IMG/VR virus record: IMGVR_UViG_3300033145_000758
Span: 1-48,304 of that record
Source of the DNA: a virus
Strand: one strand, 5' to 3'
Length of the DNA stretch: 48,304 bases
Positions 6,916-36,454 of this stretch are shown here, in pieces. The notes beneath the pieces were generated by a model. It worked only from the letters and a program-made list of their open reading frames with translations. It was not told where the DNA came from and searched no databases. Positions within the stretch are counted from its first letter, which is position 1, and every line of letters begins with the position of its first letter. The position numbers and the translations under genes were made by a program.

Positions 6916-6926
6916 GGACTTGGACA

Positions 6927-7889: not shown

Positions 7890-7891
7890 CT

Positions 7892-10733: not shown

Positions 10734-10758
10734 AGATCGTTCAAATTTTAAACAATCT
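10734..10758. repeat. 25-bp dispersed palindrome, copy 6
   Basis: Full copy between the structured RNA candidate and the hairpin at 10755-10787, whose 5' arm it slightly overlaps. Confidence 0.85.
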
Positions 10759-12869: not shown

Positions 12870-12894
12870 AGATCGTTTAAATTTTAAACTATCT
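12870..12894. repeat. 25-bp dispersed palindrome, copy 7
   Basis: Full copy starting on the base after the SQD1-like stop codon. Confidence 0.85.
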
Positions 12895-13373: not shown

Positions 13374-14699
13374 ATGATTGAAGTTGGAAAGGTAGGAATG
13401 GTTCCTTTGGAATCTATAATCATCAACGAGCGTGCTCGCCAGGAAATGGGCGACCTGAATGGCCTTGAAGCTAACATAAAAGAGGCTGGATTAATCTCGC
13501 CTCTTGCAGTCAAGGATAACAAAGACAAAACCTACACACTTCTTGCAGGTGAACGAAGGTTTAGCGTCTTGAAGAAAAACAAAGTCAAAGAAATCCCTGT
13601 CCGAATTTACGAGAAAGATATCTCAGATCTCGAGATGAAGATCATTGAGAAATCTGAGAACTTCTTTCGCAAGGACATGGAGTTCTGGGAATTAGATAAA
13701 CTAACTCTTGAGATTCATCAGATGCAACAGGCCCTTCACGGAGTCAAAGCTCCAGGACCTAATCAAGAAGGATGGTCTGTTCAAGACACTGGAGAGTTAA
13801 TAGGAGGGCTATCCAAGGCATCTGTATCTCAATCTATCCGTCGGGCTGAGGCTCGTGAAGCTTTTCCTGAACTATTTAAGAGCTGCAAAACTGCCTTTGA
13901 TGCATCTAAGGTGCTGAAGAAAGTTGATGAAGCACTTATTAAGCAGACTATCGCACAGAAACTCGAATCTCAAAAGTCCAGCAGTGTCCTTACTCAACTG
14001 TCAAAGTGCTTCATTCTCAAGGATTTCTTTGAAGGCGTGAAGGAAATCCCTGACAGAGTAATGCACTTAGTTGAAATAGACCCTCCCTATGCCATTGACC
14101 TAGTGAAACAAAAAAAGAAGGATGGAGAGTCTCAATATCAGCTTGATGATTACAATGAGATAGACAAAGATATCTACCCAGACTTTCTCTTAAGATTATT
14201 CCAAGAATGTTATCGCACTATGACTGACCACTCATGGCTCATATGCTGGTTTGCTCCTGAGCCTTGGTTTGAAACTGTCTACAATCTAATATTCAAAGCA
14301 GGCTTCTCAACGACTCGAATGTGTGGAATATGGACAAAAGGCTCACCAGGCCAGAACATGAATCCTTCAATTAGGCTAGCTAACTCCTACGAGATGTTTT
14401 TCTATGCATGGAAGGGGCGTCCAGCACTTAATAAAGCTGGAAGAGGAAATGAGTTTAGATTCTCACCTGTCCCTGCAAATCAGAAGACTCATCCAACTGA
14501 GCGTCCCGTTGAGCTGATGAAAGAGATATATGACACCTTTGCTTTCCCAGGTTCTCGTGTTCTTATTCCTTTCCTTGGTTCAGGCAACGGTCTCATTGCT
14601 GCTCATGAACTTGGAATGAGTGCTGTTGGGTTTGAGTTAGGTAAATCTCATAAGGATAGTTTTTTAGTGAAGATATATAATGAAGAGAAAAACAGATAA
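13374..14699 (+). CDS. ParB-like nuclease domain fused to DNA methyltransferase
   Basis: 441 residues. Residues 8-110 are a ParB/sulfiredoxin-type domain (LAGERRFSVLK at 57-67), followed by a helix-turn-helix-like middle (VQDTGELIGGLSKASVSQSIRRAE). The C-terminal half is an N4/N6 amino-methyltransferase with DPPY (236-239) and the SAM-binding FLGSGNG near residue 400. ParB-type phage enzymes combine sequence-specific DNA binding, CTP or nuclease chemistry and methylation. It is a candidate for recognising the 25-bp palindromes, though this is speculation from co-occurrence only. Confidence 0.85.
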   Translation: MIEVGKVGMVPLESIIINERARQEMGDLNGLEANIKEAGLISPLAVKDNKDKTYTLLAGERRFSVLKKNKVKEIPVRIYEKDISDLEMKIIEKSENFFRKDMEFWELDKLTLEIHQMQQALHGVKAPGPNQEGWSVQDTGELIGGLSKASVSQSIRRAEAREAFPELFKSCKTAFDASKVLKKVDEALIKQTIAQKLESQKSSSVLTQLSKCFILKDFFEGVKEIPDRVMHLVEIDPPYAIDLVKQKKKDGESQYQLDDYNEIDKDIYPDFLLRLFQECYRTMTDHSWLICWFAPEPWFETVYNLIFKAGFSTTRMCGIWTKGSPGQNMNPSIRLANSYEMFFYAWKGRPALNKAGRGNEFRFSPVPANQKTHPTERPVELMKEIYDTFAFPGSRVLIPFLGSGNGLIAAHELGMSAVGFELGKSHKDSFLVKIYNEEKNR

Positions 14700-14758: not shown

Positions 14759-17272
14759 ATGCGTAGGATGTACGTTCCTCCGTCCGGAAATCTCAGTGCT
14801 AAACTTGCAGGCTGTGGCGAGCAACCTGGATTTCAAGAAGTCCACGCCCGCCCTCCTAGACCTTTCGTAGGGCCTGCTGGTCAAGGGCTTGATGAATGTC
14901 TTCTAATGACAAAGATCTTACGTCGTGATCTTTACCTAACGAATGTTATTAAAGATCTCGACAGGCCTCTGAAACATTATATAAATTTAGGTAATCGAGG
15001 CAAACCTACTATCAGTCCAGAAGGCCACCAATATATTCAAGAACTTGCAGATGAACTTAAGCAACTCAACCTAAATGCAATTATAGCCTTTGGCAACATT
15101 GCTTTATTGGCGCTAACCAACAGAGTAGGAATTACAAAGTGGAGAGGCAGTGTCATTGAGTCTACAATCGTTCCTGAGCTTAAAGTAATTCCCACCTTTC
15201 ACCCTGCCACATTCATTCCTCCTAAGTTCAATTTCCTTAACAAACCTCTTATCTGTGAGGACTTACTTAGAGCTAAATATGAGAGTGAGTTCCCAGAAAT
15301 TAGACGTAAGGAGCGAAATATCACTATCAAACCAACGTTTGCTCACACCATAGATCTCCTCAACTACTGCTATGAAGTAGGTATGCGTGGTCAAACTATC
15401 GGTATTGACATTGAAGTGATAAATGGCGAAGTGGACTGCATATCTCTTGCTTGGTCTGACTATGAGTCAGTCAGTATTCCCTTTCGTGATTACCGAGGCG
15501 ACTACTTCACCGTTGACCAAGAACTCGAGGTCATGCTTCTTATTGCAAAAATAATTCAGGAACCTTCTATCTCAAAGGTTGGGGCCAACTTTATTTTTGA
15601 TATTCAGTTCCTTTTCCACAAATATGGCATTCTCCCTCGTGGGACTCTTCACTGCACACAGATTGCTCAGAAGATTGCTTATCCAGACTTTAAAGCCGGA
15701 CTTGATTTCGTCACTACTATGTACACAGATATCCCTTACTACAAAGAAGACGGTAAACAGTGGATGAAAATGCAGAGCGGTTCTTGGGAGGAGTGGTGGA
15801 ACTATAATGGAATGGATGCTATTGTCCCTGTAGAGTCAATACCTAAACAACTACAAACTCTTGCACACCAGCAAAACGCTGAGACCTACGAGCGTCAACG
15901 TAAGTTGATCAAACCTCTTATTTACATGTCAGAGCGTGGAATTAAAGTTGATGTGCAAGGGATGTTAGACTACAAAGAAAAGCAGCAGGCAGAGCTTGAT
16001 GAACTGGCCGAACAGCTTAATAAAGAAGTAGGCTATGAAATTAACTTCAACTCTCCCAAGCAACTTGCTAAATACTTTTATGAAGAGCTTAACATCAAAC
16101 CTTACAAAAAGCGCAACTCGAGTAGTCAATATGTAATAACTACCGATGTAGATGCTTTAAAGAGGATTGCCAGAAGAGGCTTCAAAGCTGCTCAACTAAT
16201 GCTCGACATTAGATCTCTAAGCAAGCGGATATCAACTTATTTAAATATAGGAAAGGTGGACAAAGATGGAAGATACAGATCAAGTTACAAACCAGTGGGA
16301 GCCGAGACAGGTCGCCTCTCAAGTAGTGAAACTATATTCGGAACTGGAGGAAATCAACAGAATTGGCCGCATGATTTACTTAGATTCTTTTTATTCGACG
16401 AAGGCTATATTGGCTATTCGTTTGATCTATCGCAAATTGAAAACAGAATTGTTGCTTACGTTGGAGGAGTTATACCACAAATCAGAGCATTTGGAAAAGG
16501 AGTAGACCTTCACTGTCTAACTGCCTCAATGATATTTGACAAGCCTTATGATAAAATATCATCTGAAGCTGGCTCTTCATCCCTCGGCGATGGTCGTCAA
16601 AGTGAGCGCTATTGGGGTAAGAAAGGAAACCACGCTATTAACTATGATGTAGGATATAAAAAATTTGCCTTAGTAAACGAAATGCCTGAGAGTGAAGCAA
16701 AGTTTATTTTGGAAAAGGTTCACAAAGGCTACCCACAGATTAGAGGAGGATATCAACTAACCATTCAAAGTATGCTTAAAAAGGATAGAGTTGTTACAAA
16801 CCTTTTTGGCCGCCGAAGATTGTTTCTTGGCCCTATTATTCCTTCCTATCCTAATGTCCCGAAGAGTGCCTGTGAAGCAACTTATCGTGAGGCATATGCT
16901 CATTTTGCTCAAAGTACTTGTGCTGATAAGATTAATGAACAGGGAGTTGAGTATATCTATTATAACCAAGATCTCTTTAGGCCAGTTGAACTCCTTGCCC
17001 AAATTCATGACTCAGTAGTGTTTCAGATCCCTCTATCAGTTCCCTGGGAGGAGCATGCTAAGATACTTCTCCTGATTAAAAAATCTCTGGAAACTCCCCT
17101 TATATGGCACAAGACTGAAATCAATACTCCTTGTGATCTAGCTATCGGTAAGTGTATGTGTAAGGATTTGATGATTGAATTTAAAAGCAAAGATGTTCCA
17201 GACAGTACTGAACGACTTGCTGATGTGCTGAAGAACACTTACAATAAGCTTAACAAAGATAATAAAAACTAA
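14759..17272 (+). CDS. polA: DNA polymerase I (family A) with N-terminal uracil-DNA glycosylase-like domain
   Basis: 837 residues with AAGGAGAT upstream. Residues 1-180 resemble family 4 UDG (GEQPGFQEV, PFVGPAGQGLDE, LTNVIK, FHPAT) but lack most Fe-S cysteines. The 3'-5' exonuclease follows: Exo I IDIEV (D217), Exo II GANFIFDIQ, Exo III YNGMD (D353). The polymerase has motif A DLSQIENR (D556), motif B KKGNHAINYDVGYKKF and motif C IHDSV (D751). This is the replicative polymerase. UDG-polymerase fusions are known from SPO1-type phages. The UDG part may be catalytically altered. Confidence 0.92.
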   Translation: MRRMYVPPSGNLSAKLAGCGEQPGFQEVHARPPRPFVGPAGQGLDECLLMTKILRRDLYLTNVIKDLDRPLKHYINLGNRGKPTISPEGHQYIQELADELKQLNLNAIIAFGNIALLALTNRVGITKWRGSVIESTIVPELKVIPTFHPATFIPPKFNFLNKPLICEDLLRAKYESEFPEIRRKERNITIKPTFAHTIDLLNYCYEVGMRGQTIGIDIEVINGEVDCISLAWSDYESVSIPFRDYRGDYFTVDQELEVMLLIAKIIQEPSISKVGANFIFDIQFLFHKYGILPRGTLHCTQIAQKIAYPDFKAGLDFVTTMYTDIPYYKEDGKQWMKMQSGSWEEWWNYNGMDAIVPVESIPKQLQTLAHQQNAETYERQRKLIKPLIYMSERGIKVDVQGMLDYKEKQQAELDELAEQLNKEVGYEINFNSPKQLAKYFYEELNIKPYKKRNSSSQYVITTDVDALKRIARRGFKAAQLMLDIRSLSKRISTYLNIGKVDKDGRYRSSYKPVGAETGRLSSSETIFGTGGNQQNWPHDLLRFFLFDEGYIGYSFDLSQIENRIVAYVGGVIPQIRAFGKGVDLHCLTASMIFDKPYDKISSEAGSSSLGDGRQSERYWGKKGNHAINYDVGYKKFALVNEMPESEAKFILEKVHKGYPQIRGGYQLTIQSMLKKDRVVTNLFGRRRLFLGPIIPSYPNVPKSACEATYREAYAHFAQSTCADKINEQGVEYIYYNQDLFRPVELLAQIHDSVVFQIPLSVPWEEHAKILLLIKKSLETPLIWHKTEINTPCDLAIGKCMCKDLMIEFKSKDVPDSTERLADVLKNTYNKLNKDNKN

Positions 17273-17296: not shown

Positions 17297-18502
17297 ATGT
17301 CTAATGATAGAGCCCTTCCGGACTGGATTGATGCTTTTATGCTACTTACTGAAGAGTCTGAACCCCCTATTCTATTTCGTAAATGGACTGCTATCTCAAC
17401 TGTTGCTTCGGCCTTACAACGGAAGGTGCATGTTGATTTAGGTATATCCCTAACCTTCTATCCTAACTTTTACATTGTCTTAGTAGGCCCGTCTGCAACT
17501 GGCAAGGGCACTGCTATGAAGTATGCTTCGGACATAATCAAGCAGGTACCAACTATCCGCTTAAGTGCTCAGGCCACTTCCCTTCAAGCTCTTATCAGAC
17601 GAATGAAGGAGATTAATCTAACCGACGTTGATATGGCTACTGGCAAACAGCAGTACCATTCTTCGATGACAGTCTTCTCCAATGAATTCACTGTATTCTT
17701 AGGCTACCATAATCAAGAGCTAATAGCTGCCCTCTGTGATTGGTATGACTGCCATGAAAGATGGACTTATGATACTATTAAAAGAGACAGGGAGGAAATT
17801 ATAGGTGTATGGGTCAATCTCCTTGCGGGTACTACTCCTGACAATATTCGTAGCTCCTTACCTATTGAAGCCATTGGAGGAGGCCTCACCTCACGTATAA
17901 TCTTTATATTCGAGGAGAAGAGAAACAAACTGGTTGTCTTTCCTCCTCTTACACAGAAGATGATAGACCTTCAACAAGCACTAATTTACGATCTTGAACA
18001 GATAACTTCAATGAGTGGAGGATTTGGACTTACAGAAGACTTCATGGGAGCTTACTATGCCTGGTGTCATGAGGCAGATATGAACCCTCCTTTTTATGAC
18101 AAGAACTTTGATGGATACTGCGGAAGGCGAAGAAATCATCTGATATCTTTAGCAATGGTATGTAGTGCAAGTAGAAACAACGAAATGATTTTAACAAAAG
18201 ATGATTTTGACAGAGCTTCTACTCTCTTGGCTGAAGCTGAAGTCAAAATGGGGCTTGTTTTTAGAGGAATAGGAAGAAGTGATATATCAGAACTAATAAA
18301 TGATGCAATAGTTTTTATCGAAAACTCTTCAACTCCAGACATTCCATTGTGGCAATTCGCAAGATACTTTGAGGGAAATATGGATAAGTTTTCTATGGAC
18401 AGAGTTCTAACAACACTTGAAGCTTCTAAATATATTAAGGTTATAAGGAGACCAGGAGAAGATACAATTATTCATATAATTGATAGAGGAGAAAGGAAAT
18501 GA
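17297..18502 (+). CDS. DUF3987-type primase-helicase ATPase
   Basis: 401 residues. An N-terminal DUF3987 signature (PDWIDAFMLLTEESEPPILFRKW, RKVHVDLG) leads to Walker A GPSATGKG (64-71), a FSNEFTVFL Walker B-like strand and GGGLTSRIIFIFEE, probably the sensor region. DUF3987 proteins replace the usual DnaB-like replicative helicase in many phages. It is the last gene of the rightward arm. The last A of its TGA stop opens palindrome copy 8, which separates it from the convergent late arm. Confidence 0.8.
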   Translation: MSNDRALPDWIDAFMLLTEESEPPILFRKWTAISTVASALQRKVHVDLGISLTFYPNFYIVLVGPSATGKGTAMKYASDIIKQVPTIRLSAQATSLQALIRRMKEINLTDVDMATGKQQYHSSMTVFSNEFTVFLGYHNQELIAALCDWYDCHERWTYDTIKRDREEIIGVWVNLLAGTTPDNIRSSLPIEAIGGGLTSRIIFIFEEKRNKLVVFPPLTQKMIDLQQALIYDLEQITSMSGGFGLTEDFMGAYYAWCHEADMNPPFYDKNFDGYCGRRRNHLISLAMVCSASRNNEMILTKDDFDRASTLLAEAEVKMGLVFRGIGRSDISELINDAIVFIENSSTPDIPLWQFARYFEGNMDKFSMDRVLTTLEASKYIKVIRRPGEDTIIHIIDRGERK

Positions 18503-18526
18503 GATTGTTTAATTTTTAAACGATCT
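18502..18526. repeat. 25-bp dispersed palindrome, copy 8 (at the convergence of the two arms)
   Basis: Full copy whose first A is the last base of the DUF3987 gene stop. It is the only structured element between the two convergent transcription units and could act as a bidirectional transcript end, although no T run follows. Confidence 0.85.
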
Positions 18527-18540: not shown

Positions 18541-21500
18541 TTAATCCTCAATGAGATTACTAAACTCAGTCATAAATCTTTCAGTAACCAATCCTCCTAT
18601 GCCTTCCATAGCTGACAACCCATCCCAGATTTTCTGCTTTCCCTCTTTGTCAGCCTTGTTGTATCTAAGAGCTAAAATCTTTGCTCTTGCTTCTGGAGGT
18701 TTTTTAGCCAGCTTCAGCCAATCTTTTCTATCAGGTAAGTCAGCGGAATTCTTAATAATCTCTATCTTATCATTAACTCTTTCCCAAGCATGATAGTCTC
18801 TTTCTATAGCCCTTTCTTTTATCTTTTCTAATTCCTCCAAGGCTTCTTTTGAGCCTCTCCAATAAGCAAACTTAGCCCAGGCTTCAGCTGCCCGACCATC
18901 TATCATATTCAATAACTTTTCTTCATTAACAATCTCAAATTCCCTTTCTCTAGTCCTAGCATTAGGAACAGTTACTCCTATCACTCTGCTAATTCTTGGA
19001 ATCTTCGACAATGTAATAAAGAGATTATCCTTCTTCATATCATCAGGAAGGTCACTGAATAACTTCTCATATCCAGTCCCTACAATCCTACCCCAGATAG
19101 AGTCCGTAAATATCTGCTTAAGTGCTGTGCTTATTCTGTCAGGAGACACTCCAGTCCTCTGACCTATATCTTCCCAGATCTTAAATCCTTCACCTGGAGT
19201 AAATTCAGCTTTACTATAAGGCCAGGGCAGCATTTCAGATGTTGCAGGTCTTCCGGTGAACATATCTTTGCCTGTTCTATAAGACTGTATAAAAGCTGCC
19301 AAGGGAGGTAAGTATGTAGGATCTACTGGCATCCCAGCTTTCATAGCCTCAAACACAGCTTCATATTCAGGCTCATGCTTGATGACCCCTGAACTATAAA
19401 GATATTGATCAGTTAATGTTTCAAAGAAGATATTGAACATGGCTATCTCACGAGGCAATGGTATCTTGACAAACAAACCTCTTTCAGCACCATCTAAGTC
19501 TGTAAATCTAAATGAGTCAGGTAGTGCGAAAGTTTTGTTTCTAGCTCTTGCATAAAGAGGAATTTCTGACTGAGTTTCTTTATTAAAAGTCCATCCAAGA
19601 GCAGTTGTTAGAGTAGCTAATGTTCCAACTTGAAACATCCTATAGGCAAACCCAGCTGGGTCATCTTTAGCTTGTCTCCAGAATACTCTACCAGCTTGAA
19701 CACCAGCATTAGTGTAAGGAAGGGCCTGGTCGATAGCTTTAATTAACCAGCCTCCTTGATTGAAGTCTATGTAATCTCTGGCTGCAAAGGCAGCTCTATC
19801 CATTATCTCTTTATCCTTCATGGCCTGCTTACGAGTAATTCCCTTCTCCCTGGCCATTCTTTCAATAACTCTATTAGCTACAGCCTCTCTAGTCCACATC
19901 TCCATATTTTCAGAGTGCCTAGTCCATAGATCACCAAACTTACTTAACTTTGTAGGTACTCTTTCTCCAGGTGCAACTATTCTAGCCTGCTGTGCTAAGA
20001 AACTTAACAACGCTCCATGCTCAGCTAAGGCTTTGTATAGAGGGCCTCTGGTGTGGGCATCCTTTGCAACCTTAACTAAGTCCTTTCCTATTTGCAGTGA
20101 GAATATTGGAAAGTGACTGCTATATAACCTATGCCACTTACCTCCTTCATAATACCTTGCCGAGCCCCAAGCTGTAAGTACATCAATAGGAAAGTTAACA
20201 ATAGTTGACCAAACAGGTGCAGCGCCAGTGGCCATAAATCTTAATACTGGAGTAAGAAGTGCGTAACTAGCAGCTCTGGCAGCCCTATACGTAAGGTCTT
20301 TACTTTTGCCAGTGACCATATCTTTAGCTATTTCAGGATGTAAATATATAGACTTCGTCTTAGCCTTTCCAGTCCCTCCTACCCAAGCACTGAATCTAAC
20401 ATACCCCTTTGGTTTCTTTGGGTAGTCAGTTTCAAGATATCTAACCTTAACTCTCTTACCTCCAAGAGATCTACTAAACTTGACTAACTCAGTATCGGAT
20501 AACTCTTCCAAGGATTGAGCGTCGAACTTTTTTATTAGCCTATTCTTGAAATCTTTCTCAGTAAGCTCTAGTGCCTTCTTCCTACTTTCTATATGCTCCA
20601 GTATTCCACTCCTAATCTCTGGAATAAGCTTTCTTTCAGGCATAGTCCATACAAGTGGATTATCTGGTCTTTCTTCCGCCACTTCCAACCAGGTTCTAAG
20701 GGCGTTGTTGTTCATAATTCTTCCATACATTCTATTAAAGAACTCAAGGGCCAGTAGCTCAGCGTCACCCTCTATTATTCTATCAGCCTCTCCCTCACCT
20801 AATCTCCTAACACCTGACTCCCTGACCTCAAATTTCCTATTACCTATAGTGACTTCCATCTTTGGGTCATACTCTTCCAACTGTCGAATCTTCCTCCAGA
20901 AATGAGACTTTAAGTCAACAGCTTCTCTATCACCAAATAGCCCCGACTCCCTGGCTTTATCAATAACTATCTTAATGTGCTCTCCATAGTTCTTGGCCTT
21001 TCTATTTAGATCAGCTACTTCTTTATCTGTAAGGTTATAGGTTTTCTTAAGAGTCTCAAGGAATTTCACGGCATTGATAGGGTCTCTTCCCTTCGGAAAC
21101 TTATACTGCTTAACAGTCTTGTATCCCCCTATATCCAGCATTCTCTTTGCATCAATAATAGCAAATAGTGTTTTCTTCCTTTCCTTACTAAGCCCAGAAA
21201 ATACTTCTTTCTCTAACTGCGAAAAATGAGTCTTCGATCTGCCAGGAGCCCCAGATGCAAGATACATCTTGTGAACTATTTCAAATCCGTCATCTTTGAG
21301 ATGTTTAAGAACTTCCCTGGAAAGGTTACCCCTCTTCTCAATAATGGCAGATGTAAATTCTTCTCTGATTCTCTTTGGTAAATAAGACCATTTAAAATCC
21401 TTTGCCTTTAAAATTTTTTCAAAAGACTCTTTAAATTCCTTAGCACCCTTTAAGATATCCTTAGCTGCTTTGTCTATAGGGATTCCTGTGTATAATTCCG

Positions 21501-24126
21501 TACCTCCCTCAGGTCCGCCTCCTTTAGGTTTCTTGGTCCTACGTTTGTCCTCGAGACTTTTTTCGGTTGTCTCAACTAATTTTATCCTACCTCTTCTAGT
21601 CTCAGGAGACTCTATAAGCTTCATAGGAATATCAGGCCTAGAAGGATCCCATATAGCTACCATTCCTCCCCTATCAAGAACATCTTGAGGCGATTCTAAA
21701 TTTACGAGTGGATATTTTTCAGCGAACTTTTTAGCTGACATTTCTGATATGTTGACTACTTTTCTTCTTTCTCCTTTAGGCAATAGGTATTCTTCGGGCA
21801 CAGTTCGTTCAATTTTTGAACGATCTCCCAGCTCCTTCACTCTCCCTATACCCAGTCTATATATAGGATCTATCTTCACTATCTCTAATATGTCTGGGTT
21901 AAATATAGTATACGCCTCAGGAGCGTCCTCGAAAGTAGCATCCTCATATTTAATACCATTTATACCTTCGTCTGCAAGCATCTTTCTACTTTGCGCACCA
22001 TACCTATCTCGCATTTTAAGGACCAAGTCACCATAGTTACTAGCATGTATACCAAACTTGTCCAACACTTTACTAGGTACTTTATCATTCCAATCAACTA
22101 TCCCCACGTTTTTTACTCTAATTTTATATAAGAAAGACCCAGGTATTTCTTTAGGATCTTCTAGCAACTTCAACTTGGCTACCAGATCTTTATTAGATTC
22201 CAGAGTACCAAGGATTACTGGAAACACATCCTCACCAACTTGAACTTTCACCAGCCCACCACTAGCGGTCTCTGCATATTCACTAGCACGTTCTTTTGAG
22301 GAAATCAAATTGATTCCTATTCCTGCTTCAGCCCCGCCCTCACCTGTACCTATCCTGTCAATGTCAAAGGTATCAAATTGGCTCTTCGATCCATGGTAGG
22401 CTTCTATATATTCTGTAGGCTGTTCAATTTTTGAACGATCTAAATTCCTAGCCCAGGCAGCTGCCTCACTTACAGTCTCTTTCCATATGTTGTGGTCACT
22501 TCTTGATATAAACTCTCTATCAAATTTATCTGCCTCAGCTGCCAAATTACTCAGTGTATTTCTAGTCTCCGTTATATCAACTGTCTCATCTCCATGATAC
22601 CATCTATTAACATCGTTAATGAGTTTTTGTGTAAGCACTTCGATATTTTCCCTTACTGATAACTCACGCCCTGCAAACATCTTACCGAAAGTCTCAGCTT
22701 TTTCTTTGTCTTGAAAGAAAGGACTTTTCTCATCTTTAAGCCCGGGAACTTCAACTCCTGTCAAGCGGTCGACCTCAGTAACCTGCTCCGGCTTTTCTTC
22801 TCCGAACCAATCTATTTTAGTTTCTTTTTTTTGCTCTATAAAGAAATTCTCTATCTCTTTATCAGATATTTTGTCTATATCTTTTTCATAGCGATTCTCA
22901 AGTTGTTTAATGGTATCTAAGTCCTCAATCACTGCAGGCTCTTCAAATTCCTCCTTAACAATCTTATCCTCTTTCTTAACCTCTTTAGCAGCTGTGATTT
23001 TCTCGCCTTCCTTAACCAGCTTCTGTCTAGCCTTCTCAGCCTTCTTGGCTTCCCTATCAAATGCCCTCTTAGACTTCTCAAACATCTTTTCTCTGGCAAT
23101 TCCCTCAGCTTGGCGTAGTAGTTCTTCCTTAATCAGTTCATCTCCAAGTTTATCAATTTTAGCCTCGGCCTCTTTTCTGGACAGCTCTGCTTGAATACTC
23201 TTAACTTCTTCAACTTTCTCCTGAGCTCTTTCAATTACCTCCTTAGGTATATCAGCCTCCTTAGCTATGTCAGAAGCAGCTTTGTCAGGTGATACTTTTT
23301 CAGCTTTAGCTTTCTTAGCTATTCTGTTGATGATATTTATTTTAGAGTATTTATCTTTAGCTCCCCGCAATAAAGCACCAACAATCCCTCTACCAACCTC
23401 TGTAGTCCCACCTGCAGCTACAGCTTCGACTATGAACTCTAATACATTTATAGCATCTCTGGAAAAACCTTCGGCCTCCAGTAGATCAGAAACTCCTTTC
23501 CCCGCCTGAAACAGATATGGCTCTTTCTTACGCCACGATACAAAAGCATTAATAGCTTCATCAGCTCCCATGAAAGCAGCTACAGCTGTTGCGGTAATGA
23601 CTGGATGAGTTAGCATACCTTTAGCTATAGCCCCAGTCATACCAAGGTGAAGCGCCTTCACAGCCATCTCTTTAGACCCGGGAATCCTAGCTGGAAAAAA
23701 TACACTCGACAATTCATCATAATGTCTAAGGACTTCCATAGGCTGTAAGCCTGTCAGCTCAGACATAGCAACTATATTGGCTGCCCTATCTTTGCCTACA
23801 TCAGGGTCGTGAAACCAACTTCTAAATTTCTCCCATAGAGTTTGGTCAGGGTCTTCTGCATAAATCCCTGGAGGTCTTTTCAGTTGAATATAAGGAGCAA
23901 TATCTGATATATTTCCACCTTTATATACCCCCATAAGAGCCGCTGTCTCAGGTGAAACAAATGGAGCTAACCCAAAAGCAAGATCTGGTCTGGGGCCGGA
24001 TGATGGCTTAACTGTTGGAACTTCAGTTGCAGGCATTGACTCATCAACATCTAAAAATTTCTCAAATGGACTCAGTTCCTTAGTATCTTTAGGTTCTACT
24101 CCTAAAAAGTCTTCAAATATACTCAT
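18541..24126 (-). CDS. Giant polyvalent ejection-type protein with ADP-ribosyltransferase domain
   Basis: 1861 residues, the last gene of the late arm. Residues about 290-460 are highly charged coiled coil. Residues about 575-750 look like an ADP-ribosyltransferase of the polyvalent-protein type (AYHGS, GIGINLISSKERASEYAE, INGIKYED, YTIFNPDILEI). Residues about 1275-1510 resemble an LPD38-type domain (ASYALLTPVLRFMATGAAPVWS, DYIDFNQGGWLIKAIDQALPYTN). Polyvalent proteins are packaged and injected with DNA, so host-targeting ADP-ribosylation on entry is plausible. Two in-frame palindromes bracket the ART domain. The start overlaps the previous stop (ATGA). Confidence 0.85.
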   Translation of the reverse strand: MSIFEDFLGVEPKDTKELSPFEKFLDVDESMPATEVPTVKPSSGPRPDLAFGLAPFVSPETAALMGVYKGGNISDIAPYIQLKRPPGIYAEDPDQTLWEKFRSWFHDPDVGKDRAANIVAMSELTGLQPMEVLRHYDELSSVFFPARIPGSKEMAVKALHLGMTGAIAKGMLTHPVITATAVAAFMGADEAINAFVSWRKKEPYLFQAGKGVSDLLEAEGFSRDAINVLEFIVEAVAAGGTTEVGRGIVGALLRGAKDKYSKINIINRIAKKAKAEKVSPDKAASDIAKEADIPKEVIERAQEKVEEVKSIQAELSRKEAEAKIDKLGDELIKEELLRQAEGIAREKMFEKSKRAFDREAKKAEKARQKLVKEGEKITAAKEVKKEDKIVKEEFEEPAVIEDLDTIKQLENRYEKDIDKISDKEIENFFIEQKKETKIDWFGEEKPEQVTEVDRLTGVEVPGLKDEKSPFFQDKEKAETFGKMFAGRELSVRENIEVLTQKLINDVNRWYHGDETVDITETRNTLSNLAAEADKFDREFISRSDHNIWKETVSEAAAWARNLDRSKIEQPTEYIEAYHGSKSQFDTFDIDRIGTGEGGAEAGIGINLISSKERASEYAETASGGLVKVQVGEDVFPVILGTLESNKDLVAKLKLLEDPKEIPGSFLYKIRVKNVGIVDWNDKVPSKVLDKFGIHASNYGDLVLKMRDRYGAQSRKMLADEGINGIKYEDATFEDAPEAYTIFNPDILEIVKIDPIYRLGIGRVKELGDRSKIERTVPEEYLLPKGERRKVVNISEMSAKKFAEKYPLVNLESPQDVLDRGGMVAIWDPSRPDIPMKLIESPETRRGRIKLVETTEKSLEDKRRTKKPKGGGPEGGTELYTGIPIDKAAKDILKGAKEFKESFEKILKAKDFKWSYLPKRIREEFTSAIIEKRGNLSREVLKHLKDDGFEIVHKMYLASGAPGRSKTHFSQLEKEVFSGLSKERKKTLFAIIDAKRMLDIGGYKTVKQYKFPKGRDPINAVKFLETLKKTYNLTDKEVADLNRKAKNYGEHIKIVIDKARESGLFGDREAVDLKSHFWRKIRQLEEYDPKMEVTIGNRKFEVRESGVRRLGEGEADRIIEGDAELLALEFFNRMYGRIMNNNALRTWLEVAEERPDNPLVWTMPERKLIPEIRSGILEHIESRKKALELTEKDFKNRLIKKFDAQSLEELSDTELVKFSRSLGGKRVKVRYLETDYPKKPKGYVRFSAWVGGTGKAKTKSIYLHPEIAKDMVTGKSKDLTYRAARAASYALLTPVLRFMATGAAPVWSTIVNFPIDVLTAWGSARYYEGGKWHRLYSSHFPIFSLQIGKDLVKVAKDAHTRGPLYKALAEHGALLSFLAQQARIVAPGERVPTKLSKFGDLWTRHSENMEMWTREAVANRVIERMAREKGITRKQAMKDKEIMDRAAFAARDYIDFNQGGWLIKAIDQALPYTNAGVQAGRVFWRQAKDDPAGFAYRMFQVGTLATLTTALGWTFNKETQSEIPLYARARNKTFALPDSFRFTDLDGAERGLFVKIPLPREIAMFNIFFETLTDQYLYSSGVIKHEPEYEAVFEAMKAGMPVDPTYLPPLAAFIQSYRTGKDMFTGRPATSEMLPWPYSKAEFTPGEGFKIWEDIGQRTGVSPDRISTALKQIFTDSIWGRIVGTGYEKLFSDLPDDMKKDNLFITLSKIPRISRVIGVTVPNARTREREFEIVNEEKLLNMIDGRAAEAWAKFAYWRGSKEALEELEKIKERAIERDYHAWERVNDKIEIIKNSADLPDRKDWLKLAKKPPEARAKILALRYNKADKEGKQKIWDGLSAMEGIGGLVTERFMTEFSNLIED
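21802..21826. repeat. 25-bp dispersed palindrome, copy 9 (inside a CDS)
   Basis: In-frame copy encoding DRSKIERT on the minus strand, just C-terminal to the ADP-ribosyltransferase domain. Confidence 0.85.
22417..22441. repeat. 25-bp dispersed palindrome, copy 10 (inside a CDS)
   Basis: In-frame copy encoding DRSKIEQP on the minus strand, just N-terminal to the ADP-ribosyltransferase domain. It has the same reading frame as copy 9, 615 bp away. Confidence 0.85.
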
Positions 24127-25291: not shown

Positions 25292-26758
25292 CTATAAAAA
25301 AGCGCTTGCAAGACCAAGGGCTGCTCCAGCTGCCATTCCCCAAGGGCCTAGAAACGAACCAGCTTTGGTATCAGCTATCATTGCCCCAGCAGCAGCACCA
25401 CTCAATGCGCCTCCTATTGCAGACTGCACCGTTGAGGGTCCTCTGGCACCTGGATTAGCCACTCCACTACCAATAGAAGCAAGCACGTTAGATCCATATT
25501 GAAATACTTCAAGATCCCAAAGTGCATCGTTTTCATCTATTTTCGCATCAATTTCCATCTGTTCCTTTTTAGCTACAATTTTAATCCTCTTTCCTTCAAC
25601 CACGAGTCTTGCATAAGCATCATTGAAAGAAATTCTTTGTAACATAAGACGAAGCATTTGATCAGAGCCTTCCAAATAACTCCTTATGTATTCGAGTTCT
25701 AATCTCTTATTTATATCTCCAACTTGAATATCTTTTTTTAAGTTAGCTATACTGATTTGTACCTCTTTATTTAAATTAGCAGTGCTAATGTCTAATTCCT
25801 TAGATAAGTTGGCTTTGCTTATGTCTAAATTTTTCTGCATATTAGCTATACTAATTTGCACACTTTTGTCTAGATTAGCAGTGTTAATACCTAAGTCCTT
25901 AGATAAATTAGCTTTACTTATATCTAAGTTTTTCTGCATATTGGATATGCTAATTTGTGCATTTTTTTGCATATTAGCCATGTCTACATCAGCATTTTTT
26001 AATGCAGCATTGACACGAAGTCCAGAATTGTGTTTAGCAACCTCACGATCTCTGAAGCCTTCAATAATTGATCTTCCAACAGCAAAAGCGCTGGACATTA
26101 CAGAGTTAATATTTCTCATTCCACCTTCAAATCTGGGAAGGACTTTAGAAACAATTTCATCATCTAATTGATCAGCAAATGCATCTACATCAAGAATTAT
26201 TTCTGCATCAGTAATCTCATCAGCGTCACTTACTACATCTGCATCTCCTACAGATTTATCAAGCACAGATACATCACTTACTGATATATCACCTACTGCG
26301 CCTGCATCTCCAACAGACTTGTCAAGCACAGATGCATCACTTACTGTGAGATTTGTTAAACTACCTATTGACATCGCAGCTTGAACAAATAGATCATTCC
26401 AGCTACTTGTGTCAGTAATACCTGCGAGAAGAGTTTTTAAGTCCGCAATCGCTGATTCATAGTCAGTAATATCTGTACTAGGGTCATATGCACTTTGAGC
26501 TGTCCAAGGAGACCCACCAATAGCTGCATCCATAATACCTGTTACAGATACGCTTAGTATATCAAGCCCTGAGTTGTCCAACCAGTTACCATGGACAGTC
26601 TTCATATAGTCTGGATAGTCAACTCTACCAGATCCTCCACCGCCTCCCCCTTTACATTCAGTTACTGGACCAAAGTATTCATACAGCTCTCCATCAACAA
26701 CCTGAAGAGTCTTCATATCTATGACACACTTAGTAAATATCTTCATTTTATTATCCAT
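25292..26758 (-). CDS. Ejection / internal virion protein with 11-residue coiled-coil repeats
   Basis: 488 residues. A six-glycine run lies at 38-43 and a 20-residue repeat (SVLDKSVGDA) at about 139-178. Nine consecutive 11-residue units occupy residues 255-353 (NLDISKANLSK-type), grouped into 33-residue super-repeats. The C-terminal 55 residues are Gly/Ala rich and hydrophobic (GGALSGAAAGAMIADT, MAAGAALGLASAFL), like a membrane-inserting glycine zipper. Right-handed coiled coils plus a glycine zipper suggest a DNA-ejection channel component. It overlaps the previous gene by 8 bp and lacks its own ribosome binding site. Confidence 0.75.
   Translation of the reverse strand: MDNKMKIFTKCVIDMKTLQVVDGELYEYFGPVTECKGGGGGGSGRVDYPDYMKTVHGNWLDNSGLDILSVSVTGIMDAAIGGSPWTAQSAYDPSTDITDYESAIADLKTLLAGITDTSSWNDLFVQAAMSIGSLTNLTVSDASVLDKSVGDAGAVGDISVSDVSVLDKSVGDADVVSDADEITDAEIILDVDAFADQLDDEIVSKVLPRFEGGMRNINSVMSSAFAVGRSIIEGFRDREVAKHNSGLRVNAALKNADVDMANMQKNAQISISNMQKNLDISKANLSKDLGINTANLDKSVQISIANMQKNLDISKANLSKELDISTANLNKEVQISIANLKKDIQVGDINKRLELEYIRSYLEGSDQMLRLMLQRISFNDAYARLVVEGKRIKIVAKKEQMEIDAKIDENDALWDLEVFQYGSNVLASIGSGVANPGARGPSTVQSAIGGALSGAAAGAMIADTKAGSFLGPWGMAAGAALGLASAFL
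25700..25996 (-). repeat. Coding tandem repeat (nine 33-bp units)
   Basis: DNA encoding residues 255-353 of the ejection protein consists of nine 33-bp units with a higher-order 99-bp periodicity. Such repeats can expand or contract by recombination and change protein length. Confidence 0.8.
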
Positions 26759-27227
26759 TAAGATAGTTTAAATTTTGAACAATCTTATCAATATCAAAAG
26801 AGATAAATGTGTAATTAGCTTCCCCTCCTAACCGTCTAACCAATTCTACAATATACGGAGAGTTAGTATAAGCTATTATTCGTGCGCAGTTTTTTGATTT
26901 TGCATATTTGGCGATTATCTTTAACCCATGAGACCAGCTTGATCTATCTATTCTACCATACCCATACAAGCAATAAATCAATAGATTTTTTGTATTACTT
27001 GCATCATCGTAGAGAATTCTTGTCACCATTATACCTTCAAACTTATTACCTTCCTCTCCCTTGGTATAGGAAGCCCAGACCTCAATTTTACCACTAAGAG
27101 CAGCAGATAGAATGCGGTTCATCTTGTCAGGGTGCTCTCCCGCAGTAGGAGGTAAAGAACATTCTATAGCATACTTAATAATATCCCAGAACTTCGATAT
27201 TTGTTCAGGTAGTAGCCTGGTTAACAT
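26751..27227 (-). CDS. GNAT-like N-acetyltransferase family protein
   Basis: 158 residues from ATG 27227, set by GGAGGG 7 bases upstream rather than the longer frame to 27266. An alpha/beta layout with GKIEVWASYT, FEGIMVTRIL, NLLIYCLYGYG and ARIIAYTNSPYIVELVRRLGGE, plus a closing YTFISFDI strand, fits the GNAT fold; the canonical acetyl-CoA loop is degenerate. Such genes commonly sit next to phage ejection proteins. The C-terminus is encoded by palindrome copy 11 (KIVQNLNYL), nearly the peptide made by copy 5. Confidence 0.65.
   Translation of the reverse strand: MLTRLLPEQISKFWDIIKYAIECSLPPTAGEHPDKMNRILSAALSGKIEVWASYTKGEEGNKFEGIMVTRILYDDASNTKNLLIYCLYGYGRIDRSSWSHGLKIIAKYAKSKNCARIIAYTNSPYIVELVRRLGGEANYTFISFDIDKIVQNLNYLNG
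26761..26785. repeat. 25-bp dispersed palindrome, copy 11 (C-terminus of a CDS)
   Basis: Full copy encoding KIVQNLNYL, the end of the gene at 26751-27227. Confidence 0.85.
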
Positions 27228-29765: not shown

Positions 29766-30491
29766 CTATCCTTCCATTTGGTCAGCTTCTGCAATGGCTT
29801 CCTCAACAAGATCCATCCCAAGCTGACGCATGTCTGTCAAGATTGCAGTAGTCCAGTCATTAACACCCTGAGTGTTACGATTTACAATTTCAACTTGACG
29901 CATAGCTGCCATTATAAGAAGCATTGGATGAACTTCCGACCAGAAATTTGCGTCTTCATCATTTGTAAGCTCTATTGAATAATACAGTCCACGAATGTCA
30001 AGCATAGTTTTATACTGAACAGGTACATTTAGAAGAATAGCGTTATATTCATAAGCATTGCCGGAGGGTATCTCAACATAGCCTACAAAAGCCTCAATAT
30101 CAGCAACTGTTGCATCTTCTGGAATATATCGAGTAATGCAAGGTGAGTAGTAAAGTGGAGTTCCTTCACTGCGAGAGCTTGGAAGACCAGTTAAATATCC
30201 TTCCATTAAGTCTTGAAGACTTTTCTTTTCAAGTTGCCATCGGCCATTGGTTGTATCAGCTGCCCAAACTTCCTTGACAGCTCTACAATGAGGGAAGACC
30301 GCACTGAACCGTCCTACTTCAACAAATCGAAAGCATGAAGCCCAGGATTTCTGTGTCTCGTCAAGACGGTCAAGGAACTTCCTTCCTTCATTGATAAAGA
30401 AGTCAGCACCATTATCGCTTCCATCTTCGTTTACAAGATCAAAGAGTCCACTAAGTTCACGAAACTTCTGACGGAGCTGTAACAGATTCAT
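29766..30491 (-). CDS. Head-tail adaptor protein
   Basis: 241 residues. The N-terminus MNLLQLRQKFRELSGLFDLV and the ADFFINEGRKFLDRLDETQ helix match adaptor proteins that follow the capsid gene in short-tailed phages. A four-helix layout with an inserted beta part and the LLIMAAMRQVEIVNRNTQG helix fit. It probably forms the ring under the portal. No strong ribosome binding site is visible. A terminator-like hairpin separates it from the capsid gene, so it may be expressed at a lower level by read-through. Confidence 0.7.
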   Translation of the reverse strand: MNLLQLRQKFRELSGLFDLVNEDGSDNGADFFINEGRKFLDRLDETQKSWASCFRFVEVGRFSAVFPHCRAVKEVWAADTTNGRWQLEKKSLQDLMEGYLTGLPSSRSEGTPLYYSPCITRYIPEDATVADIEAFVGYVEIPSGNAYEYNAILLNVPVQYKTMLDIRGLYYSIELTNDEDANFWSEVHPMLLIMAAMRQVEIVNRNTQGVNDWTTAILTDMRQLGMDLVEEAIAEADQMEG

Positions 30492-30516
30492 TTTAGTACC
30501 GTATTAAAAGTTTGTT

Positions 30517-30544
30517 GAAAAGCAAGCTGGGCACAACGCCCAGC
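30517..30544 (-). terminator. Probable terminator or attenuator after the capsid gene
   Basis: On the minus strand GCTGGGC (30544-30538) pairs with GCCCAGC (30532-30526) over a 5-nt loop and runs into TTGCTTTTC. It lies just after the major capsid stop, where partial termination would favour capsid mRNA over downstream genes. Confidence 0.6.
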
Positions 30545-30566
30545 CTGCTGTTGGCCCGAGTGGAGG

Positions 30567-31865
30567 TTAGCTAAGATTATTATCCAGACCAACTCCATTA
30601 AGCACTGCACATTTCTGAGGGAGCCCGAACTCAAGCCCACACTCAGTAAGGTACTCCTCATTAGTACCATCGACTCGACGCTGCCCATAACCTTCAGGAT
30701 GTTTCTTTGCAGTTGACTCACCATAGAATTGTGTATCATCTATGTATTTGTAAGTCATCTCCTTTGGCTCAATGATAATGCCCATGTTACGAGTAGTTGC
30801 ATCATAACTAAAAAGAGGATGAGTTTTCATATGGATAGTCCCAAAGGGAGTTAGCCAGGAACGAATCTGCATCCCATAGGTTTTTTGAGCAGGCTGAAGA
30901 TTAAGCTGACCGCCTGCCATTGCAAGGGCGTCGATACCAAGTAAGAAGCCTGAGCCGCATAGGCAAAGTTTTTCATCTGCCCCATAGCGAAAAATCTGCT
31001 CAAGCATATTCTTGAACCAGGTCTCACCTCCAGCAGTCCAAGTCTGACCGCTGTAAGAAGCATTAAGTGTATAGTCGTCGCAGTTTGCACTTGCATACTG
31101 ACGGATGAAGTTAATCACACCCATAGTAGTACGTTCAGGTTTTCCGTTGTCGCCTATATTCTCAGTGCGGATTCCCCAGAGGAATGCAAGCTCCATCTCC
31201 CAGGAATGCATTTCTAAGGCTTCAGCCTTTGCTTTCTGGTATTGATCACCAGTGCGTAAGCGAGTCTTTCGAGCAGTCCTAGTGATAGACAAAGGTGTAC
31301 GAAAAATCTGAGTATAGTTATAAACCTTCGTCGGATTAAGAGCAATTGCATCTGGCATCTCACCTCCCTCAGGATTGATATTACCGATGATCTTGAAAGT
31401 ATCACAATCACTGAGATCATGGGTAGGTGAGTTGTCATCGTTTTCAAGCAGACGTACTGCAAGGACAGAGTTAGTAGTACCCCTAGTTACACCGGTTATC
31501 TTACCTACTACATCAACTCGATAGTCTGAAGAGTCACGAAGTAAGATTTGATGCCCCTCACGGATACGATTAGCGAGGGTAGTAGTGACTTGAACATAGA
31601 CTACATCCCCAGCCACTCCACCACTGGCGTAAGCAGCACTTAAGTCAGGGAGGGTGTAGACACCAGCTACATCACCTCCAACAGCGGTTTGTTCCTGAGT
31701 CCACCAATGGAATTGAGGATCGTCCACAGATTCAGACCCAAGCATAGACAGAATAGCTGTTAACGGAGCCATTCCATTAGGATATAAATAAAGAATTTGT
31801 TGTCTCCAGTTCATAGGACGCTGATCAGCGACCCAATCACCGTTTCCACGCATACCTAAAAACAT
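30567..31865 (-). CDS. Major capsid protein (SU10-like, DUF5309)
   Basis: 432 residues from ATG 31865, chosen because GGAGGTAA lies upstream of it; the ATG at 31880 has none. The N-terminal MNWRQQILYLYPNGMAPLTAILSMLGSESVDDPQFHWW and the LSITRTARKTRLRTGDQYQKAK helix match the SU10-type DUF5309 capsid family (HK97 fold). It follows the scaffold-like gene as expected. It lacks the delta-domain cleavage motifs of HK97 itself, in keeping with a separate scaffold. Confidence 0.88.
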   Translation of the reverse strand: MFLGMRGNGDWVADQRPMNWRQQILYLYPNGMAPLTAILSMLGSESVDDPQFHWWTQEQTAVGGDVAGVYTLPDLSAAYASGGVAGDVVYVQVTTTLANRIREGHQILLRDSSDYRVDVVGKITGVTRGTTNSVLAVRLLENDDNSPTHDLSDCDTFKIIGNINPEGGEMPDAIALNPTKVYNYTQIFRTPLSITRTARKTRLRTGDQYQKAKAEALEMHSWEMELAFLWGIRTENIGDNGKPERTTMGVINFIRQYASANCDDYTLNASYSGQTWTAGGETWFKNMLEQIFRYGADEKLCLCGSGFLLGIDALAMAGGQLNLQPAQKTYGMQIRSWLTPFGTIHMKTHPLFSYDATTRNMGIIIEPKEMTYKYIDDTQFYGESTAKKHPEGYGQRRVDGTNEEYLTECGLEFGLPQKCAVLNGVGLDNNLS

Positions 31866-31888
31866 AGTTATTACCTCCATACTGGTTA

Positions 31889-31913
31889 AGATCGTTTAAA
31901 AATTAAACGATCT
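31889..31913. repeat. 25-bp dispersed palindrome, copy 12 (perfect)
   Basis: A perfectly symmetrical copy between the capsid gene start and the small decoration-like gene at 31922. It contains two GATC sites, one in each arm. Confidence 0.9.
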
Positions 31914-31921
31914 ATTTGTTA

Positions 31922-32329
31922 TTATTGAGGTACAGTCGTAGGAGCTACAGTCGTTCCAGGAGGAGCAGTAGTACTAACTCCAGGCCATTCACCAGGACTC
32001 AACAGAGGAAACCAGGCAAGACCATCACTGTAGAACAGACCTCGGTCACATTTGCCATCAAATACTATATCACCTATCCAACACTCAGAATCATCTTTGT
32101 CTTGGACAGTAACAGTATTCAAAGCATCAGCATTGCGGACTATGATCGAGTAAAATCGACCCTTGGCTTCAGCGACAGGAGGCAAGGTCAAGACAATCGG
32201 CCCACTATCACCATCTGCGCCTGGTCTTACAACATAGTCTCGAGTAGTCATTTGGTAATCATCTACTGGGTTGACATACTTATCAACCACTTCCCTATAA
32301 TGTTGTTCGTTATTTTGCTCAAGGCTCAT
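31922..32329 (-). CDS. Decoration or head-fibre-like protein with Thr/Pro tail
   Basis: 135 residues, AAGGAGGT upstream. Residues 30-110 are a beta-sandwich candidate (GPIVLTLPPVAEAKGRFYSIIV, NTVTVQDKDDS, RGLFYSDGLAWFPL). The last 20 residues are Thr/Pro/Ala repeats (TTAPPGTTVAPTTVP) like those in the adjacent scaffold-like gene. It lies between scaffold and capsid genes, so it may decorate the capsid. The Thr/Pro tail is a possible O-glycosylation target of the phage glycosyltransferases. Confidence 0.65.
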   Translation of the reverse strand: MSLEQNNEQHYREVVDKYVNPVDDYQMTTRDYVVRPGADGDSGPIVLTLPPVAEAKGRFYSIIVRNADALNTVTVQDKDDSECWIGDIVFDGKCDRGLFYSDGLAWFPLLSPGEWPGVSTTAPPGTTVAPTTVPQ

Positions 32330-32336
32330 AATTTAG

Positions 32337-33182
32337 TTACCTCCTTAATGTTTTGTTCATCTGCTCAAGTTCATTGAGAAGAGGACTAGGGTTAGGTTTA
32401 TCTTGATTTCTTCCAGATCTACCTTTCTTACGAGGCAGCCTGGGAGGTTTATTTCCATCACCTACATCTTTCTTAGTAGCTTGTTTATGAAGTTCGAGAC
32501 GTTTACGAACTTCAGGGGCTACATCTTTCATTATAACATCAAAACGCTTATCGGGATTTTCAGAAGCGAGCTCCTCAAAGACAGCTGCTACAACTTTCTT
32601 GAAAGGTCTGAGGTCTTCATTATCTGCATAAAACTGATCACTAGCCTTCTGCAAATTAGCCATTGTAATGATATTAGATCTCACTATATCAGGGATAGAC
32701 CGTAAAACTCCCTCACCAAGAACCTTTCGAGTATCGGTTACAGCTTGCTGATAGATCTTGTTTAGTAGTTTGTTGAACTCTGCAGGGTCATTCATCACAT
32801 CTTCAATGTCAAGATCACCAACAAAATCTTGTATATCTAAGGCCAGAGGAGCCTCAGTCGTAGGAGCATCTGTTTTCAAAGATTCTTTCTCAGCTAACTT
32901 TGCACGAAGTTCTTCAATGATTTTATCCTTCTCATCAGGAGCATCAGTTGCCGGCGCATTTGTAGATGGAGACTCTGTGGACGGAGCCTGTGTTGAGGGA
33001 GACTCAGTGCTAGGAGATCCAGTAGCTGGGGCCTCAGTAAGTGGAGAATCCGAAACCGGAGCGTTAGTTCCCGGTGCATCAGTTCCAGGAGGCTCAGTTG
33101 CAATAGCCTCAGTTACTATCCCTTCGCCGAAGGATCTATTCATTAATTCTACCTCACTTTGTATATTCTTTGTTTCAACCAT
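32337..33182 (-). CDS. Scaffolding-type protein with mucin-like repeats
   Basis: 281 residues from ATG 33182, set by GGAGGTTAG; the ATG upstream at 33197 has no site. Residues about 30-85 are Ser/Thr/Ala/Pro repeats in steps of five or six (APSTESPSTNAPATDAP). The C-terminal half is helical, with a very basic end (PRLPRKKGRSGRNQ) and a short terminal helix, the usual way scaffold proteins bind capsid. Position between portal and capsid genes supports a scaffold. The low-complexity segment is unusual for scaffolds. Confidence 0.75.
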   Translation of the reverse strand: MVETKNIQSEVELMNRSFGEGIVTEAIATEPPGTDAPGTNAPVSDSPLTEAPATGSPSTESPSTQAPSTESPSTNAPATDAPDEKDKIIEELRAKLAEKESLKTDAPTTEAPLALDIQDFVGDLDIEDVMNDPAEFNKLLNKIYQQAVTDTRKVLGEGVLRSIPDIVRSNIITMANLQKASDQFYADNEDLRPFKKVVAAVFEELASENPDKRFDVIMKDVAPEVRKRLELHKQATKKDVGDGNKPPRLPRKKGRSGRNQDKPNPSPLLNELEQMNKTLRR

Positions 33183-33219
33183 TTTGCTAACCTCCATTAG
33201 TTTGTTTTAAATTAAATAT

Positions 33220-33684
33220 TTACTTGACAGACTCTTGTCTCCAAAGCTCTTTCCAGTAACCATATTCAGACGACCCATCGCCGTCTATATTGATAAGTGC
33301 AATGACATCATCTTGCTGAGCCGCAAATATAGACCCTACAGGGAGCTGATTTAGATAAATCTGTCCATCAGATTTACTTCCGTCCTTGAACGAAACATTG
33401 TTTCCTTGGAAGATAAATATCTTTACCTGTCCCTGAGTCCCTCCTCTAATCTGTTCAATGGTAGATGCTCCAAGGCCGCTTATTAGGATTGTTTCTATAC
33501 TTATATCAACTAAATCAGTGCCGATGACTAAAGCATTATCACCTGCAGAGACAAGAAGCTCTGTGTTTGTAACCTCAGTTATCCCAGATATAAGCTCATT
33601 AATAGCTACACGGTTTTCTCTAATGTAAGAAGGCAGCTCACTAGCTACTACTTGGTCAGTCGGTTTGCTTGTGTCTAGCGACAT
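33220..33684 (-). CDS. Virion-module beta-sandwich protein
   Basis: 154 residues, GGAGGATAAG upstream. An N-terminal helix (SYIRENRVAINELISGIT) leads to a beta domain ending in DVIALINIDGDGSSEYGYWKELW. The gene at 40551 ends almost the same way (DVLALINYGGNPDILVNGYWQEIF), so both carry a related C-terminal domain, probably head-fibre or decoration type. Location between portal and scaffold genes supports a head role. Confidence 0.65.
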   Translation of the reverse strand: MSLDTSKPTDQVVASELPSYIRENRVAINELISGITEVTNTELLVSAGDNALVIGTDLVDISIETILISGLGASTIEQIRGGTQGQVKIFIFQGNNVSFKDGSKSDGQIYLNQLPVGSIFAAQQDDVIALINIDGDGSSEYGYWKELWRQESVK

Positions 33685-36449: not shown

Positions 36450-36454
36450 AATTT

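Follow-up and report, generated by a model that had tools for sequence, protein, structure and literature searches.

Cluster O mycobacteriophages such as Corndog and Dylan carry more than 30 copies of a 17-bp dyad repeat, the function of which is unknown (PMC4351075). In a separate survey, fusions of a ParB-type CTPase to an N6_N4 methyltransferase are presented as frequent in phages and of unknown function, with some binding ATP or GTP in place of CTP (PMC12704722). The window considered here, which is the whole of the complete virus record IMGVR_UViG_3300033145_000758 from IMG/VR (48,304 bp long, the two ends repeating the same 114 bp), belongs to a podovirus-like phage and contains both a scattered palindrome and a protein with this domain pairing. 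The palindrome, of 25 bp and nearly perfect (AGATCGTTYAAWWWTTRAACRATCT), is found in 15 copies across the window. Two of them lie on either side of an ADP-ribosyltransferase-like (ART-like) domain within a giant ejection protein, and the initial annotation suggested on these grounds that the palindrome may serve as a module joint. Binding sites of ParB type account for the palindromes better than a general joint does. The favoured explanation, with a probability of roughly 0.64, is that they are parS-like sites of the phage's own ParB-methyltransferase, and that the giant gene retains its site in a linker, at which cassettes could be gained or lost through recombination.

All 15 copies stand far above background. 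With a symmetric matrix they score between 29.9 and 38.6 bits, while the best other 25-mer of the window reaches 1.7 and shuffled genomes a maximum of 6.0, and a chance origin is therefore excluded. A palindrome pattern scan of IMG/VR returned 11 further records with 3–22 copies each, and additional relatives were added through protein searches; their contigs are metagenomic and their gene calls are plain longest open reading frame (ORF) calls. The first dyad search missed the motifs of several relatives, which a seeded symmetric search recovered. Applied to Cluster O as a positive control, the de novo search script finds the published repeats again.

The ParB-methyltransferase and its covariation with the palindrome

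The proposed binder of the palindrome is a protein of 441 residues encoded at 13374–14699 on the plus strand, assigned from Pfam, NCBIfam and PDB matches and from an AlphaFold2 (AF2) model searched with Foldseek. Its N-terminal part matches ParB_N (Pfam, 1.7e-10) and the ParB and Noc entries of the PDB (E 5.5e-6), contains the motifs LLAGERR and ENFFRKD, and has as invariant residues G59, R61, R62, E95, N96 and R99, which belong to the nucleoside triphosphate (NTP)/CTP motifs. The predicted ParB-type helix-turn-helix (HTH) comprises helices 136–143 and 148–163 in the AF2 model, with a putative recognition helix that starts at K148; the HTH_ParB match in Pfam is weak (E 0.04) and is seen only in the homologue from a Desulfofustis phage. 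Further on, the motifs DPPY (236–239) and FLGSG (400–404) and an N6_N4 fold identify a beta-class amino-methyltransferase. The Foldseek matches of the model include Noc and ParB, as well as N4/N6 methyltransferases with E 1e-13. Since this N6_N4_Mtase domain occupies the place of the ParB C-terminal dimerisation domain, which is absent, the product is a ParB-fold fusion and not a canonical ParB.

It is a core gene, found in each of the ten complete relatives that were compared. Most loci longer than 8 kb that encode such a protein carry 25-bp palindromes of the same geometry, the counted sets having Q values of 60–500 against a maximum of 30 in shuffles. Across 49 phages, the residue at position 148 follows the sequence of the half-site at its positions 6–7. 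Phages with K, P, T or I have GT (32/32), those with D, N or G have AT (9/9), and those with Q have A at position 7 (5/5); the two with H and the one with R have GT or GG. When 370 columns of the protein were scanned without bias, K148 ranked first (z 8.3) and S147 second (z 5.9), the latter reaching z 15 against half-site position 9; these z-scores are based on shuffled labels and take no account of relatedness. In a tree built from the methyltransferase part, the state that pairs D with AT requires four changes, at least three of them forced by well-supported branches, and the Q state arises at several places; the backbone is poorly resolved, so that the number of independent co-switches is uncertain. 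By eye, residue 148 aligns with R173 of Caulobacter ParB, which contacts G1 of parS, where Noc has Q173, which contacts A1 (PMC7383237). These sequence comparisons argue strongly, though indirectly, for the ParB-methyltransferase as the predicted reader of the palindromes.

The resemblance to the ParB–parS and Noc–NBS systems of Caulobacter and Bacillus (PMC7383237) extends to the ParB_N domain with its CTP-motif residues, the predicted ParB-type HTH, a palindromic site with a GTTT-like half and a specificity that follows the residue at the place of R173/Q173 in the alignment; the sites of Noc, too, are dispersed over a chromosome. However, here a methyltransferase follows the HTH in a protein devoid of the ParB C-terminal dimerisation domain, and the site measures 25 bp, has a 3-bp centre and occurs about every 3 kb of a phage genome. 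The domain pairing itself is that of the surveyed ParB-CTPase-N6_N4 fusions, for which the accessible text describes neither an HTH nor DNA sites (PMC12704722); both are proposed here. The covariation would thus supply candidate sites and a candidate specificity residue, K148, for fusions reported without DNA sites in that text, and it links palindromes of a type reported in Cluster O without partner or function (PMC4351075) to a ParB-methyltransferase.

A comparable partner may exist in Cluster O. Dylan gp89 (29891–31399) has a ParB_N match and a possible HTH, and aligns (E 5e-8) with the N-terminal half, of ParB type, of the protein from the Desulfofustis phage; no methyltransferase match was found for it in Pfam. 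It is put forward, from sequence, as a candidate binder of the 17-bp repeats.

Symmetry, spacing and placement of the sites

The sites are symmetric, with interchangeable halves and no orientation, and occur at a density of about one every 3 kb. Of 15 complete genomes, 12 have gaps that are more even than those of random positions (coefficient of variation (CV), p<0.05). They include all of the first five (G000, G005, G007, G008 and G009; p <0.001 to 0.017) and seven of ten more, and in all five genomes tested the gaps are also more even than those between random gene junctions. The copies of one genome share one core, which differs between genomes. Relatives that lack the motif of the window have palindromes of the same 25-bp geometry with the cores CATTAA (G022), TATAAAT (G025), GTTAA (G023, G034 and G036), ATTAAAT (G018, G029 and G030), GATC/GAACC (G012), CTTCGTTT (G027 and G028) and GTCCCAA (W01). 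Despite these changes, the sites hold orthologous positions across phages that are about 70% identical and across specificity classes.

Many of these properties recall the Cluster O repeats (PMC4351075), which likewise form sets of many palindromes of identical geometry in related genomes, share the 7-N3-7 core (TGTTCGG-NNN-CCGAACA, compared with YGTTYAA-NNN-TTRAACR here), are both intergenic and within genes, and have no orientation. Conversely, the Cluster O repeats are not closely linked to translation starts, while the sites described here are tied to start codons; in addition, here the sites are evenly spaced in most genomes, the outer AG..CT ends are conserved while the core changes from phage to phage, and the ParB-like protein carries a fused methyltransferase.

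According to the proposed mechanism, the ParB-type protein would bind the palindromes as dimers, with the methyltransferase replacing the C-terminal domain of ParB. NTP-dependent clamps would then load at every palindrome, slide on the neighbouring DNA and deliver the methyltransferase genome-wide. Such loading and sliding would explain both the even spacing and the lack of orientation.

With regard to placement, most intergenic copies lie between the stop codon of the upstream gene and the Shine-Dalgarno (SD) sequence of the next one, and others lie between convergent genes or inside genes. At 61 sites a start codon with its SD is found just downstream, mostly 9–23 bp after the site with a peak at 15–18 bp. 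This arrangement speaks for a function as operators or stoperators, through which the ParB-like protein or another regulator would silence or activate transcription or translation, as KorB, VirB, the phiC31 conserved inverted repeats and the L5 stoperators do, and the methyltransferase would have a separate job. VirB and KorB are ParB-family regulators, and the phiC31 conserved inverted repeats are many short scattered phage sites bound by one phage protein. VirB is also listed as a CTP user (PMC10676424). The stoperators of Cluster A phages are similar in being many short sites, scattered over the genome and bound by one phage protein, but they are asymmetric and oriented with transcription (PMC4351075), whereas the sites here are symmetric. 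An operator function nevertheless appears unlikely, as sites are also present inside genes and between convergent genes, no shared promoter elements were found in the flanks upstream of the sites, no lysogeny gene was recognised among the scanned genes, and even spacing is not predicted by it.

The joint in the giant ejection protein

The giant ejection or polyvalent-type protein has 1861 residues, is encoded at 18541–24126 on the minus strand and matches ART-PolyVal; its homologues in relatives have 1388–2340 residues. Its gene is the longest of these genomes, at about 4.2–7 kb. Two of the 15 copies were reported within it by the initial annotation, and both are placed exactly as described. 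Copy 1 (22417–22441) encodes DRSKIEQP (D563–P570) and copy 2 (21802–21826) DRSKIERT (D768–T775), both reading A|GAT CGT TCA AAA ATT GAA on the coding strand. They adjoin the limits of the ART-like domain (21869–22416, approximately residues 571–752): copy 1 ends five residues before AYHGS and copy 2 starts 15 residues after EIVKI. Upstream of copy 1 lies the end of a conserved helical domain with the motif EAAAWAR (22442–22500, residues 554–560), which forms the left side of the joint, and copy 2 is followed by a unique stretch (21492–21801) up to a conserved LYTG motif at residue 878, all on the minus strand. The shared frame is weak evidence because the TRA within the palindrome always closes one frame and leaves two open, so that sharing has a chance of about 1 in 2.

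When excised, the ART-like domain matches Pfam ART-PolyVal with E 2.7e-6 over its N-terminal half only; the score of 28.6 bits falls short of the curated cut-off, which is 31.2. The domain also matches phrog_4700 (1.4e-5). No match was obtained in a PDB sequence search, and a single-sequence AF2 fold of the isolated domain gave no usable model (pLDDT 32). In IMG/VR no close relative was found for the domain or, among viral contigs, for the stretch after copy 2, which has no Pfam match either.

Across relatives, giant proteins align up to about residue 570 of the window protein and again after about residues 850–890, with different domains in between. An in-gene palindrome is found in 21 of the 25 giant genes of phages with a known palindrome set, the window included, and in 17 it lies at one common joint, 8–15 residues past the start of an EAAxWAR motif. 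What follows the joint palindrome is an ART-like domain in the window and in G027 (of another subfamily, by motif only), a peptidase-like HExxH domain in G004, G005, G007, G009, G012, G015 and G021, and merely a short linker in G013, G017, G019, G023 and G034; the HExxH region of G007 matches Pfam LPD23 and, weakly, Peptidase_M78. The initial annotation had predicted such domain-less and domain-swapped homologues with a single palindrome at the junction, and both kinds were recovered. In G028 the palindrome stands on the C-terminal side of an ART-like domain, and in G008 the in-gene palindrome precedes an inserted stretch containing HGT; the alignment of the G027 and G028 domains with that of the window is too weak for an orthology call. 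Since an ART-like domain, an HExxH domain or almost nothing can follow the same helix and palindrome, the EAAxWAR position is a genuine domain-exchange joint, marked by the palindrome in most phages. Swaps without a palindrome also exist, at the EAAxWAR joints of G008 and G020, and the right-hand ends of nearly all swapped domains carry none. Polyvalent phage proteins that combine ART with zincin-like MPTase domains (PMC5512222) are similarly giant and ejected, and the order of their ART-like, HExxH-type and LPD domains varies; here, by contrast, the variable joint carries a scattered DNA site in frame.

The proposal that a cassette was exchanged or inserted at the repeats is borne out as far as domain swapping at the joint is concerned, while the exact pre-insertion state is seen in no relative. 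Copy 1 is the most degenerate of the genome's copies, with a drifted right half (AGGCTGTTCA), and corresponds by orthology to the one copy that relatives have in this gene, as the left flank is homologous up to and into the palindrome. Copy 2 is identical to the copy of G005 and G007 (26/26). On the simplest reading, the arrival of the ART-like domain would have brought a second palindrome with it, and copy 2 would have taken over as the site. Without the in-gene copies, the largest gap of the window would be 8.3 kb, compared with at most 5.6 kb now. The long giant gene holds a site in most phages, which would be tolerated only in an interdomain linker, mostly after the EAAxWAR helix, where the encoded DRSKIERT-like peptide would be harmless and where domains can be exchanged too. 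As this linker is the place of effector exchange and the palindrome a short sequence common to these phages, recombination at the palindrome could insert or remove a cassette, and in the window it would have left the ART-like domain between two copies.

Beyond the EAAxWAR position, the palindrome does not behave as a general module joint. Same-strand gene junctions were broken between relatives in 199 of 385 cases with a palindrome and in 683 of 1299 without (odds ratio 1.04, p 0.77). Among 56 insertions at palindromic junctions, three rows are flanked by palindromes on both sides, and the majority retain at most one copy at an end. The three rows amount to two independent cases. One is a 2.3-kb gene cassette in G005 (5995–8268) and G007 (36050–38264), in place of which a single palindrome is found in the window and others; the second is a 2.1-kb segment in G008 (37167–39252), and here too relatives show a lone palindrome without the cassette. 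The two cases show that such flanking can arise, and not that the palindrome exists for it. As palindromic junctions are not broken more often than others, acting as a joint is a side effect and not the main job of the palindrome, and a role as general module joint was rejected on both the junction and the insertion-end tests. That it is primarily a recombination joint, a short sequence shared at gene and domain borders through which a Sak4-like annealing protein and an exonuclease exchange modules, is improbable. Such a joint would account for the bracketed ART-like domain, the single copies at the same position with another or no domain and the two further cassettes; the window does encode the annealing protein and the exonuclease, and a segment of about 550 bp in the Cluster O phage Catdawg is flanked by two repeat copies where relatives have one (PMC4351075). 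However, a passive joint leaves the covariation with the DNA-binding helix unexplained, two-copy insertions are rare (3/56), and few repeats were likewise found at rearrangements in Cluster O (PMC4351075).

Two other explanations have very little probability. An RNA hairpin acting in processing, termination or translation control would suit a palindrome adjoining SD sequences, but half-site positions vary independently, without covariation of the halves, and on the transcribed strand A.C mismatches are more frequent than G.U at positions 4, 5 and 9, which fits a DNA site for a bound dimer and rules out an RNA stem; moreover, there is no T-run, and copies lie within genes and between convergent ones. 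A selfish palindromic element inserting in frame, like those of Rickettsia, would make the two copies two insertions and fits the in-frame copies in the giant gene and in a 129-residue gene, but orthologous positions are kept across divergent phages and specificity classes, and each genome has a single core that differs from those of others.

Several observations weigh against the parS-like reading, besides the neglect of relatedness in the column scores and the uncertain number of co-switches. Many distant ParB-methyltransferase loci (about 42% identity) have no detectable palindromes, spacing is not significantly even in G023, G029 and G036, and placement at gene starts would also fit regulation. 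Furthermore, four of the 25 giant genes (G025, W01, G029 and G030) have no in-gene palindrome, so this site is not essential. No recombination intermediate was found among the relatives, nor was the exact pre-insertion state, the ART-like domain and the stretch after copy 2 having no close relatives in IMG/VR. A wider version of the parS-like reading is more tentative. It holds that in a large phage group the genome may be marked by parS-like palindromes at even distances, placed at gene starts and also within genes, onto which a sliding clamp of ParB type loads with its methyltransferase, the whole genome being methylated from scattered points, with site and reader co-switching and in-gene sites doubling as places of effector exchange. 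If true, phages would spread a DNA-modifying enzyme from fixed loading sites, and would offer a series of ParB-like specificities that co-evolved in nature, as well as a case in which a DNA site is forced into the linker of a protein.

Genome context and further copies

The left half of the window carries rightward genes for a ligase, an exonuclease, the Sak4-like annealing protein, the ParB-methyltransferase, DNA polymerase A and a DUF3987 protein, and the right half leftward structural genes and the giant ejection protein. Among isolates, the nearest one found was Desulfofustis phage LS06-2018-MD01, which shares this gene order; a blastn comparison of the region with GenBank phages gave no match. 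The distant isolates Microcystis phage Mel-JY34 and Vibrio phage VS-ABTNL-3 show a similar order (giant protein, ParB-like methyltransferase, polymerase), and in both the ParB-methyltransferase is diverged and a palindrome set was not found.

The other copies of the palindrome lie at 373–397, 407–431, 1753–1777, 2962–2986 (with a start codon 18 bp downstream), 6118–6142, 10734–10758, 12870–12894 (flanked by a stop codon and an SD/start), 18502–18526 (between convergent genes, kept across specificity classes), 26761–26785, 31889–31913, 36455–36479 (the single copy where G005 and G007 have two around the 2.3-kb cassette), 41320–41344 and 46894–46918. The copy at 6118–6142 stands mid-gene in the 129-residue core gene at 5940–6329 (plus strand), where it encodes a FVQKLNDL-like peptide in a different frame from that used in the giant gene. 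The in-frame copy is also present in this gene in G005, G007, G008, G010, G013, G016, G020 and others, and homology to G005 and G007 stops near it.

The direct terminal repeat (1–114 and 48191–48304) contains a GTCCC-N5-GGGAC dyad with the geometry of the Desulfofustis phage palindromes. The DNA polymerase A at 14759–17272 (plus strand) has a uracil-DNA glycosylase domain fused at its N-terminus. Its homologue in G005 (30166–33600) is an ORF of 1144 residues, compared with 835 in G007, and includes about 920 bp (32041–32958) that are not shared with G007, possibly an intein or an insertion. Finally, tandem 33-bp and related repeats are found at 25697–25927 and 26226–26346 (minus strand) within the gene of a 488-residue P22 gp7-like ejection protein.

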